From assembly GCF_018326005.1 (NCBI RefSeq), contig NZ_AP021903.1, forward strand, positions 4,125,501-4,189,500: 64,000 nt of DNA, given 5' to 3'. This DNA comes from Pseudomonas sp. Seg1 (GTDB taxonomy: Bacteria > Pseudomonadota > Gammaproteobacteria > Pseudomonadales > Pseudomonadaceae). Below the pieces are notes generated by a model. That model worked only from the letters and a program-made list of their open reading frames with translations, had not been told where the DNA came from and did no database searches. Each line of letters starts with the position of its first letter. Within the stretch, counting starts at the first letter, position 1. Below, piece after piece: positions 4,522 through 26,903 of the stretch. Position numbers and translations under genes: made by a program.

Positions 4522-4998
4522 AGCACCGAAAACTGACTGATTAGTCGTATTAGACGAAAGATGTAGTGCTTGAAAAAAAGCACTACAAAACGTTTGACGA
4601 GGCAAAAAAGCGAAGGCATGATGGCCTCGCTCCCGCTAATCAGAGGCCCTGGCAAGGGCCTTCGAAGCGATGTTCGCACCTACCCCCGCGAACCGTTTCG
4701 TGTCTGTACCGCCCACAAGGTGTGTTTGACGAGGTTGCCGACTGGAACGAAGTTGTCCCGAGGGACGGAAGCGTAATTAGGTAACCCGGCATCACACTGT
4801 AGTTCGTATAAAGGCCCACGATGCCCGAATGCGCCCGCCAGTTTCGCCACTACCTGCTCACTTCCCCTCGAGCCCATCGTTCATCCCGTCGCCTGCCCCG
4901 CCGAACCCGACCTGACCACCTAAGCTTCTGGTCAGCGAGCGCAAGGAATTTTCCACCGCAGAACAACTTTTCATAAAGACGCGACGAGGTTTATCTCC
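4522..4998 (+). promoter_or_regulatory. Long leader/promoter region of aceA with two inverted repeats
   Basis: These 477 bases hold no credible gene. At 4562-4587 there is a perfect palindrome, TGTAGTGCTT and AAGCACTACA around GAAAAA. At 4912-4935 CTGACCA and TGGTCAG form a second repeat with a 10-base spacer. The first resembles the TGTAGT/ACTACA style of site I recall for RccR, the RpiR-family regulator of glyoxylate-shunt genes in P. fluorescens; this is an inference. The promoter itself is not obvious. Confidence 0.5.
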
Positions 4999-25290: not shown

Positions 25291-25306
25291 CGATCAGTCT
25301 TTCAAT

Positions 25307-25337
25307 AAAACGCGGCCTGGATAGCGCCGCGTTTTTT
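25307..25337 (+). terminator. Rho-independent terminator, probably bidirectional
   Basis: ACGCGGC at 25310-25316 pairs with GCCGCGT at 25326-25332, with A residues before and T residues after. It separates two convergent genes. Confidence 0.9.
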
Positions 25338-25357
25338 CACCCCTCTCGGCAGATTGA

Positions 25358-25738
25358 TCAGCCAGCAGGCTCGACGTTATCCAAAGCCCTGTTCACCGCC
25401 AGTTCGCCGAGCATGACGACTTGGGCGATGCCCAGAATCGTCTTGCGATGCGTGCCTTCCAGCAGCGCGGCGAAGTCGCCGAGCATGACGGAGGCGGAGG
25501 CCAGGGATTCGCAGGCGTTGGCCAGCAGGGATTCGGTGTCGGCTTTGGGATTGGCCAGGAACATCTGATTGGGGGTGTAGGGCGTGGCCATGATGGCGGC
25601 GCTGGGTTTGAGGTAAAAGTCGAGGGCGCGGTCGGCGGCTTTGTGGAGTTTTCGAATGTCGGCGGAGACGTAGGGGGATGTTGTATCGGCGTCCGCTGGA
25701 ACGGTTGTTTCAGGCGGATTGGGTGTTGGCTTTTTCAT
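25358..25738 (-). CDS. DUF6124 family protein
   Basis: The 126-residue product begins MKKPTPNPPETTVPADADT, contains KLHKAADRALDFYLKP, and ends with TESLLANACESLASASVMLGD and QVVMLGELAVNRALDN. From memory this is the DUF6124 family, small proteins abundant in Pseudomonas, often in several paralogues per genome, with no known function. No signal peptide or membrane segment is seen. The ATG at 25738 has GGAG seven bases upstream. The stop of a long upstream frame overlaps this start as ATGA, and the 220 bases upstream form the structured leader described separately, so control at the RNA level is likely. Confidence 0.8.
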   Translation of the reverse strand: MKKPTPNPPETTVPADADTTSPYVSADIRKLHKAADRALDFYLKPSAAIMATPYTPNQMFLANPKADTESLLANACESLASASVMLGDFAALLEGTHRKTILGIAQVVMLGELAVNRALDNVEPAG

Positions 25739-25960
25739 AATGAAACTCCGGTGTGGCAATGGAGCTGGCCCATTCGGTTCCAATCGAAGGGTGGCAGCTG
25801 TACGCAGGTTGGAACCCGGGCCACCAGACAAAACCCGACAGACTCGAAGTCTCCCGCGCACAGCCGCCATAACGGAGTGCACACCATCAAGGTGCGCAAG
25901 CATACGTTATGAAAGCCAATTTTGCGCTTTCGGGTGGTCCGGGGTTCCAATCCCGATCGC
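25739..25960 (-). ncRNA. Structured leader RNA of the DUF6124 gene, with alternative helices
   Basis: On the minus strand the outer arms at 25953-25933 and 25825-25807 form a long helix (GGATTGGAACCCCGGACC with GG(C)CCGGGTTCCAACC). Inside lie three hairpins: GAAAGC/GCTTTC (25931-25911 region), a compound stem CATAACG/CGTTATG (25911-25868) enclosing TGCGCACC/GGTGTGCA, and AGACT/AGTCT (25852-25840). The 3' outer arm can instead pair with GATTGGAACC at 25785-25776. Next to the gene, CTCC at 25764-25761 can pair with the ribosome site GGAG at 25749-25746. An open frame (25735-26010) crosses the element and ends ATGA on the DUF6124 start. No known riboswitch class is recognised. Confidence 0.5.
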
Positions 25961-26107
25961 TGATTTGGCAGCGACATCCACACACTAGAGAGCCGACGTC
26001 CGACGGACAACCTGAAAACATTGTGGGAAGGTTCTGCGATTGACCTACACCCTTAAACATCCCGAAGCGAAATACAGATCGTGATATTGCAATACCCCCG
26101 GTGTCGG

Positions 26108-26440
26108 CTATCCACCGCTGTTCCGGCAAACGCCCGCCACGCTGTATTTGAGGGTGTTGAGCTGCCCTTGCGAATCTTCATAGGTCATGGCGGTGGGGAC
26201 GACCGAGCAGGCAGGCTGCGGCTTCACCACGCTGACGATTTTCACCACGTCCAGCTTCATCCCGTATTCGTAATCCCTCACCACCGGCGGCGCTTTGCCC
26301 TGGTTGGCGGCGTATTGCGCCATGGCTTTGGCATTGGCGCTGAATGCGCGCTCGAACGCGCGGTCGCCCCCGCCCTCGGCCAGCACATTCATGGACATCG
26401 CCATGACGCCGGCGAGGGTCAACGACTTGATCAATTTCAT
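26108..26440 (-). CDS. Small exported protein: PtrA-type N-terminal domain joined to DUF2790
   Basis: The 110-residue product has a signal peptide (MKLIKSLTLAGVMAMSMNVLA), then AEGGGDRAFERAFSANAKAMAQYAANQ, which matches the N-terminal part of PtrA-type proteins, then a DUF2790 domain (YGMKLDVVKIVSVV, a cysteine, VVPTAMTYEDSQGQLNTLKYSVAGVC). DUF2790 proteins are small periplasmic proteins of pseudomonads, often induced by metals or stress; the function is not settled. GGAGGAG lies before the ATG at 26440. It follows a second PtrA-type gene by 67 bases, so the two are probably one transcript next to czcCBA. Confidence 0.8.
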   Translation of the reverse strand: MKLIKSLTLAGVMAMSMNVLAEGGGDRAFERAFSANAKAMAQYAANQGKAPPVVRDYEYGMKLDVVKIVSVVKPQPACSVVPTAMTYEDSQGQLNTLKYSVAGVCRNSGG

Positions 26441-26507
26441 GTTCAACTCCTCCATAAAAAAGCCCGGCATCGATGCGCGATGACAGGCTTGTTCCAGCAC
26501 GGTGTGG

Positions 26508-26711
26508 TTACAGATCCTGGGTCTTGTCGTCTTTCTTTTCATTGACGACGACCGGATTGCCTGCAGCCTTTTCCTTGGCGACAAACAGCTCTACCGAGCG
26601 GTCGCTGGCGGCCATCATTTTTTCAAAAGTACGGTCGCCGCCACCTTCGGCCATGGCCAGGGAAGACAACGCCAAAGCTGCGGTAAAGGCACTGATCTGA
26701 GCGAATTTCAT
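26508..26711 (-). CDS. Small exported PtrA N-terminal-domain protein
   Basis: The 67-residue product has a signal peptide (MKFAQISAFTAALALSSLAMA) and the motif AEGGGDRTFEKMMAASDRSVELFV, the same as the first part of its downstream neighbour. This is the domain named after P. aeruginosa PtrA, a copper-induced periplasmic protein first described as a type III secretion repressor; the name does not prove that role here. The lysine- and aspartate-rich tail ends KKDDKTQDL. GAGGA lies before the ATG. The promoter (26761-26799) shares a box with that of czcC, which suggests metal control through CzcRS. Confidence 0.8.
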   Translation of the reverse strand: MKFAQISAFTAALALSSLAMAEGGGDRTFEKMMAASDRSVELFVAKEKAAGNPVVVNEKKDDKTQDL

Positions 26712-26812: not shown

Positions 26813-26903
26813 CTGTAGGAGTGAGCCTGCTCGCGATGGCGGTGGGTCAGCCAATGTAGATTTGACTGATAGACCGCTATCGCGAGCAGGCTCACTCCTA
26901 CAG
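26813..26903. repeat. REP doublet, TGTAGGAGTGAGCCTGCTCGCGAT family
   Basis: Inverted pair CTGTAGGAGTGAGCCTGCTC and GAGCAGGCTCACTCCTACAG with about 45 bases between. It ends 10 bases from the czcA stop and may stabilise the 3' end of the czcCBA transcript. The family recurs at 42444-42533 and 50686-50777. Confidence 0.9.

Follow-up and report, generated by a model that had tools for sequence, protein, structure and literature searches.

In the phages P1 and P7, C4 antisense RNA belongs to the immI operon (c4-icd-ant) and is cut from a longer transcript; its b' segment pairs partly over the ribosome site while a' binds upstream (PMC5320573), and a few pairing bases set heteroimmunity (PMC5320573, PMC12197685). 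In phage P4 the CI RNA is a processed antisense RNA lying between two complementary targets, seqA and seqC, of its own transcript, and the IsrK RNA of the Gifsy-1 isrK-orf45-anrP system acts as an activator (PMC4825925). Chromosomal examples come from Acinetobacter baumannii, in which the Group 1 sRNAs comprise 21 similar C4-like sequences that are expressed and apparently processed (PMC5320573). PMC2864571 gives Proteobacteria and phages as the range of C4 and, for c4-a1b1, phages and the gamma-Proteobacteria. The literature retrieved on C4 antisense RNA together with Pseudomonas, judged largely by titles and the openings of abstracts, gave nothing about C4 in Pseudomonas (PMC2864571, PMC8198154). 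Neither C4 itself nor its occurrence in many copies in an Acinetobacter genome is new; the partnership with DUF6124 described below apparently is, since no report of it, or of the coordinated change of the b segments, was found in the literature searched, which included few subscription journals. DUF6124 was not named in that literature, and DUF3077 appeared only as the mention of a pseudogene.

The DNA studied here, called the window, is a stretch of 64,000 nucleotides from Pseudomonas sp. Seg1, and the element of interest is the leader of a DUF6124 gene on its minus strand (Table 1). Judged by its sequence matches, this leader is a phage P1/P7-type C4 antisense RNA module with a1b1 and a2b2 targets. 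The RF01695 model is matched over its full length (1-87) and above its gathering threshold, and the order along the leader is c4-a1b1, C4, the a2/b2 targets and the Shine-Dalgarno sequence of the gene, the whole module occupying 25988-25736. Family membership and anatomy thus come directly from computation. No icd/ant target of the immI type is present at the window locus; the target gene is DUF6124, which scores 78.4 bits against PF19619 (curated cut-off 27). The window C4 has GG at 25868-25867 and CCACC near its 3' end, a motif that reads CCACC in 34 of the 38 C4 copies of the same genome (the own genome, G000) and CCTCC in four; by analogy with P1/P7 and A. baumannii (PMC5320573), an RNase P cut is predicted near this GG. 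The coordinates in the original prediction were correct; its reading of the element as an RNA switch gives way to the C4 and c4-a1b1 matches in Rfam with their a1b1/a2b2 targets, and of the P. fluorescens repeat family that it also considered no sign was seen.

Table 1. Features of the C4 module and its DUF6124 gene at the window locus (window coordinates).
Feature	Coordinates	Strand	Details
Promoter/operator-like block	25982..26022	-	TTGTCC (26010-26005), 17-nt spacer, TAGTGT (25987-25982)
Perfect dyad GTCCGTCGGAC	26008-25998	-	In the promoter/operator-like block, directly upstream of a1b1
c4-a1b1 element: 5' hairpin and a1-bearing hairpin	25936..25988	-	Rfam RF03163, 53.7 bits, gathering 46.7
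a1 target TTGGAACCCC	25941..25950	-	a' duplex -27.0 kcal/mol
b1 target region	25916..25940	-	b'-b1 duplex -22.4 kcal/mol
C4 antisense RNA (P1, P2 and P3 helices)	25787..25874	-	Rfam RF01695, 57.9 bits, gathering 45
b' loop, specificity segment varying among species	25821..25836	-	Mean pairwise difference 0.253
a' segment CGGGTTCCAACC	25807..25818	-	Partner a1 or a2
a2 target CGATTGGAACCGAATGGGCCA	25766..25786	-	a'-a2 -23.9 kcal/mol
b2 region with anti-SD CTCC (25764-25761) and Shine-Dalgarno GGAG (25749-25746)	25743..25764	-	
DUF6124 gene, 126 aa and stop	25358..25738	-	PF19619, E 3.8e-22

Folding of the 253-nt leader gives -104.6 kcal/mol (z -3.6), an energy that none of 200 dinucleotide shuffles reached. 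C4 alone gives -44.7 kcal/mol (z -3.9; minimum-energy fold of 25872-25787), again better than every shuffle, and its P1 stem encloses P2 and P3 and leaves the b' loop exposed. The long outer helix proposed earlier, with arms 25825-25807 and 25953-25933, does pair, at -29.3 kcal/mol; where three hairpins were first described within it, the minimum-energy fold shows two branches. The two exclusive helices of the original prediction also stand: the outer one is a' with a1 and the alternative one a' with a2, and they are mutually exclusive because a' can pair with one or the other. Taken as 25822-25805, a' gives duplexes of -27.0 kcal/mol with a1 and -23.9 kcal/mol with a2 (25786-25766); the inner part of C4 pairs with a1b1 at -40.1 kcal/mol, and the downstream a2b2 target gives -31.7 kcal/mol. 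Two exclusive helices within one leader are also what a ligand- or protein-sensing cis switch, working without a free antisense RNA, would have. However, the Rfam models for C4 and c4-a1b1 both match this sequence, and b1, b' and b2 change fast and in concert, as described below, which is unlike a conserved ligand pocket; we consider such a switch highly improbable and dropped the ligand reading because of the two Rfam matches.

The leader is very probably a C4-type antisense RNA lock on the DUF6124 gene, in which, most likely, as in the phage systems, a processed C4 blocks translation of its own DUF6124 and b' is the address of the module. We propose that a single promoter upstream of a1b1 would give a transcript carrying a1b1, C4, a2b2 and the gene, from which C4 would be excised as an RNA of about 77 nt, its 5' end by RNase P as in known C4s, and would then fold on itself. 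The exposed b' and a' would bind b2 and a2; as b2 is situated at or over the Shine-Dalgarno sequence, translation of the gene would be blocked both in cis and in trans. The a1b1 element would be a second, upstream target that either holds C4 in the precursor or soaks it up, whereupon the gene would be released. The a' segment may be a class mark common to related modules, and the co-changing b', b1 and b2 the address proper to each, which would allow dozens of modules to coexist in one cell. For the window module, we infer the transcription start, the processing, the repression and the role of a1b1. The module resembles P1/P7 in its C4 fold, in the pairing of a' and b' with a target at the ribosome site and in a1b1, which is a separate Rfam family; unlike P1/P7, the C4 of this Pseudomonas genome are chromosomal, present in dozens of copies and mostly placed before DUF6124 rather than icd/ant, and b diversifies at a fixed locus. 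With the A. baumannii Group 1 sRNAs they have in common the large number of C4-like RNAs in one host genome. The A. baumannii RNAs are without known targets and reported to vary in a' (PMC5320573), whereas most C4 of this Pseudomonas genome have their targets and gene next to them, and b' is the most variable part of C4 at the window locus.

The original prediction of a repeated cis-acting module in a multi-copy DUF6124 context holds throughout the genome. In the own genome the cut-off is passed by all 38 C4 matches, by 17 of the 34 c4-a1b1 matches and by 36 of the 37 DUF6124 matches. For 31 of the 38 C4 a DUF6124 gene follows just downstream on the same strand, with 161-229 nt between the C4 end and the start of the PF19619 match in these 31 modules. 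Seven C4 have no downstream DUF6124 gene. C4 stands before a DUF3077 gene in L028, before a gene with a Bro-N domain, the target being of the classical anti-repressor type, in L031 (G000:C1:6336052-6336137), and before small proteins with no Pfam match at E <= 0.1 in L027, L054, L062 and L063; in L035 the gene is lost. Conversely, six DUF6124 matches, five over the cut-off, lack an upstream C4. L064 has only an a1b1 element (L064:871-923) directly before the DUF6124 gene with no C4 match between them, and by its sequence has apparently lost C4; L065 has only a weak a1b1 before DUF6124; L052 is the second gene of a tandem, L061 a fragment, and L275 decayed by its look. At L274:1069-1216 (G000:C1:4204300-4205600) a C4-less DUF6124 gene adjoins a PrrF sRNA (158 bits), and a stretch resembling an HTH regulator gene, judged by eye, lies nearby.

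Among 119 Pseudomonas genomes, 109 have C4 over the cut-off, the best 33 candidates per genome having been scored so that copy counts reaching 33 read as at least 33; DUF6124 over the cut-off is found in 94 of the 119, with up to 43 copies each. A class-wide sample gave C4 in at least 17 of 273 other genomes, all 17 from outside Pseudomonas, with one to six copies among the candidates scored (the best 15 per genome, under stricter filters than in the Pseudomonas survey). In certain Pseudomonas genomes C4 is plentiful and DUF6124 scarce (G009, 38 vs 2; G025, 28 vs 3), and in the loci of these two that were inspected C4 often precedes other small proteins, several of which start, by eye, near a PDPP motif. 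At L126:1215-1513 (G009:C21), three C4 with a common a' core and different b' are packed into 300 nt, and no intervening gene was seen. The matches listed for 248 other Pseudomonas genomes (best two candidates per genome) include no such array, and selection on the array is therefore not supported. Extra C4 without an obvious gene of their own lie beside complete modules at L127:1566-2121, L128:1368-1853 and L129:1256-2198 (G009, G025).

The pairing within modules was compared with that between them by computing duplex energies of a' and b' of each copy against the upstream and downstream regions of all 38 copies, own partners being set against reassigned ones. Own-copy pairing is strongly favoured for a'-a1 (z -13.3), a'-a2 (z -7.4) and b'-b2 (z -13.2) and weakly for b'-b1 (z -2.0), and the mismatched negative controls give z 0.3 and 0.8. 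In a second genome (G010; 35 of 36 matches used, the one below the cut-off left out, windows as in the own genome) the values are -12.1, -3.3, -13.1 and -4.6, respectively, with controls at -0.6 and 0.4. The longest perfect complement, a cruder measure than duplex energy, agrees, being 8.1 nt for own against 6.1 nt for other copies upstream and 8.0 against 5.3 nt downstream. For the window copy, the own a2+b2 target ranks first of 38 in both directions (-40.3 vs -31.3 kcal/mol for the next), and the window a2 is the top of the 38 targets for the window a'. Across the own genome, the summed own pair comes first for 14 of 38 C4s and 17 of 38 targets, and 148 of 1406 cross pairs equal or better the cognate pair of the target; in G010 the own pair comes first in 5 of 35 rows and 11 of 35 columns. 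Modules thus tend to fit their own targets better than those of other copies; since the energies are crude and many cross pairs match cognates, this orthogonality, as computed, is a tendency. All 38 b' cores of the own genome are distinct. An identical a' core occurs in 34 pairs of modules, none of which has a common b'; the likeness of b' is 0.62 in a'-sharing pairs vs 0.58 in other pairs, and that of the stems 0.82 vs 0.71.

The same division between a and b appears at the locus itself, for which the window was compared with 26 relatives (G019, L164-L188). The upstream DUF2790 region is also matched in 22 of the 26 (in L184 over 93 nt only), and because most relatives have this same upstream setting we treat them, with reservation, as orthologs; the region downstream of the DUF6124 gene is matched in only two of the 26, and two further loci end at a contig edge. 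Difference and pairing statistics were computed on 26 sequences, L187 being dropped. The mean pairwise difference is 0.02-0.06 in the promoter block (26022-25993, 0.050), a1, the C4 arms and a', 0.12 in a2 and 0.16 between b1 and C4; a1 is nearly invariant in the aligned relatives, L187 excepted, as is a'. It rises to 0.48 in b1, 0.25 in b' (0.253 vs 0.038 and 0.020 in the adjoining C4 segments) and 0.51 in b2. The three codon positions of DUF6124 differ by 0.134, 0.077 and 0.315 in the 26 sequences, and the third is exceeded by b1 and b2, though not by b'. The own b'-b1 and b'-b2 pairings nevertheless surpass shuffled ones at z -6.3 and z -6.8, with 0 of 20000 shuffles as good, probabilities that overstate the number of independent events because the sequences have common ancestry; about six b allele groups, grouped by eye, lie behind this result, and with one sequence per distinct b' (n=14) the values are -4.7 and -4.9. 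At this locus, computation therefore finds b1, b' and b2 changing together while their pairing is kept. The prediction of conserved arms is sustained here and in the two genomes, in the form of complementarity retained while the letters change.

Some copies are damaged: the gene is lost in L035, the DUF6124 of L275 looks decayed, and in L187 a1b1 is missing and a stop interrupts the part of the gene that was matched. It might be supposed that the modules are decaying phage remnants without function. Yet complementarity is kept as the letters change, and the codon positions point to purifying selection on DUF6124; decay is made most unlikely by this maintained complementarity.

The link to the ribosome site expected originally is borne out, as b2 reaches the Shine-Dalgarno sequence and at least three of its bases fall inside the b' duplex in 28 of the 37 own-genome copies with a gene start; in the window copy the predicted b' duplex takes in two of the four. 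The CTCC noted earlier can indeed pair with GGAG, and the Shine-Dalgarno region of the window copy taken alone is unremarkable (z -0.6). Over 37 of the 38 own-genome modules (those with a gene start), anti-SD/SD pairing is better within than between copies (z -3.6; 5 of 20000 shuffles), and a local CTCC/Shine-Dalgarno hairpin may add to the block on the gene. A different mode of action is suggested by phage P4, whose seqA-CI-seqC layout has the same order of target, antisense and target (PMC4825925): pairing of C4 with a1b1 and a2b2 would end the transcript early, directly or via Rho, and lost translation would be only part of the effect. P4 works by transcription termination, and a ribosome-site target is not described for it in the sections available (PMC4825925), whereas here b2 lies at the Shine-Dalgarno sequence with the coverage just given. 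Moreover, a scan of 25300-26150 found no intrinsic terminator, a result that does not speak against Rho. We regard control of the P4 kind as rather unlikely, and block of translation by C4 as the preferred reading.

Closer inspection of the leader frames bears on a further alternative, in which a short a1b1 RNA or a coupled leader ORF would open the gene, as in isrK-orf45-anrP of Gifsy-1. The window module recalls that system in its exclusive structures and in the resemblance of isrK to a1b1, an isrK (RF01394) match below threshold covering 25975-25909 (38.4 bits vs gathering 50); the orf45 frame closes with AUGA overlapping the following start, and its conservation is of nucleotides rather than amino acids (PMC4825925), which is much like the 91-codon frame proposed originally. 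This TTG-started frame (26010-25735) is present in the window, but it reaches 91 or more open codons in 9 of 27 locus sequences and stays open for six or fewer in 7 of 27, so that a coupled leader ORF of this length fails. In view of this AUGA overlap in Gifsy-1 (PMC4825925), the frame from the AUG of C4 itself was tested too, and its stop lies within 12 nt of the gene start in 6 of 34 cases in the own genome (control frames 2/34 and 6/34), 1 of 23 in G010 (control frames 3 and 3) and 7 of 25 window locus sequences (control frames 10 and 10); in the window copy it enters the DUF6124 gene in frame. A coupled leader ORF of the orf45 type was rejected on these counts, the 91-codon frame not being conserved and the C4-AUG frame showing no excess over controls. 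Unlike Gifsy-1, the window module has neither a conserved coupled frame nor, in the window copy, a detected terminator between a1b1 and C4 that would yield a short a1b1 RNA. Activation of the IsrK kind is accordingly judged improbable, more so than control of the P4 kind.

The block upstream of a1b1, and with it of the whole element, is a putative promoter, assigned from its conservation only. GGTTGTCCGTCGGACG, a 16-base core, has seven exact matches in the genome, all just upstream of C4 modules; with up to three mismatches it has 71 genome matches (38+33) vs 103 (46+57) for the backward control, which is no excess. Other modules have different upstream blocks. A consensus scan of 25300-26150 found no promoter, and the transcription start near 25976 is therefore a presumptive one.

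A phage counterpart is found in Pseudomonas phage PAJU2, in which a C4 module precedes the annotated anti-repressor Ant with the same module geometry as in the window; it differs in being phage-borne, in its anti-repressor gene and in a T-rich, terminator-like stretch, seen by eye, between a1b1 and C4. Ten of the 11 phage records matched by the C4 search are named Pseudomonas phages. A phage or plasmid origin of DUF6124 itself was considered and rejected: no PHROG family was matched at E <= 0.1, none was found in plasmids, and the one phage match lies at the edge of its record. In that record (L277, start of EU982300.1, Pseudomonas phage DVM-2008), the prophage repressor gene prtR has a C4-like match on one side and a DUF6124-like gene on the other. 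The DUF3077 relative (L028) matches phrog_36471 (E 8.7e-11) and phrog_6327 (E 7.1e-4), phage families of unknown function, and a search of phage records found none. The AlphaFold2 model of DUF6124 (mean pLDDT 69.7) is confident only over about residues 68 to 120, a helical hairpin, and of low confidence in the N-terminal half. Foldseek gave no match with E <= 0.001 in PDB or BFVD, and the best match among PDB sequences has E 0.41; with no fold or sequence match of note, no function is inferred for DUF6124.

The presence of 38 C4 in one genome, most of them beside their own target gene, is a natural experiment on the number of antisense pairs that a single cell can keep separate, and on the way in which a pairing code can shift and stay intact. 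The DUF6124 family gains a testable mode of control, and the origin of phage heteroimmunity specificities can be approached through chromosomal loci that have many alleles. We also put forward, as a speculative and probably incorrect extension, that the C4 modules are mutually private locks throughout the genome whose b code diversifies like self/non-self recognition. If so, a resident C4 would silence its own DUF6124 and incoming modules of the same code, new b alleles would escape, and gene-free C4 (those of L126 and the two leading C4 in L128) would be trans-acting, memory-like repressors.

Three further observations concern the rest of the window. An SrbA sRNA match (93.2 bits) lies at 4639-4866. 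At 26108-26711, the DUF2790 gene (26440-26108) is preceded by a 67-aa frame, and the AEGGGDR start common to both makes them probable tandem relatives. A long imperfect inverted repeat, TGTAGGAGTGAGCCTGCTCGCGA ... TCGCGAGCAGGCTCACTCCTACA, is visible by eye at 26813-26901.
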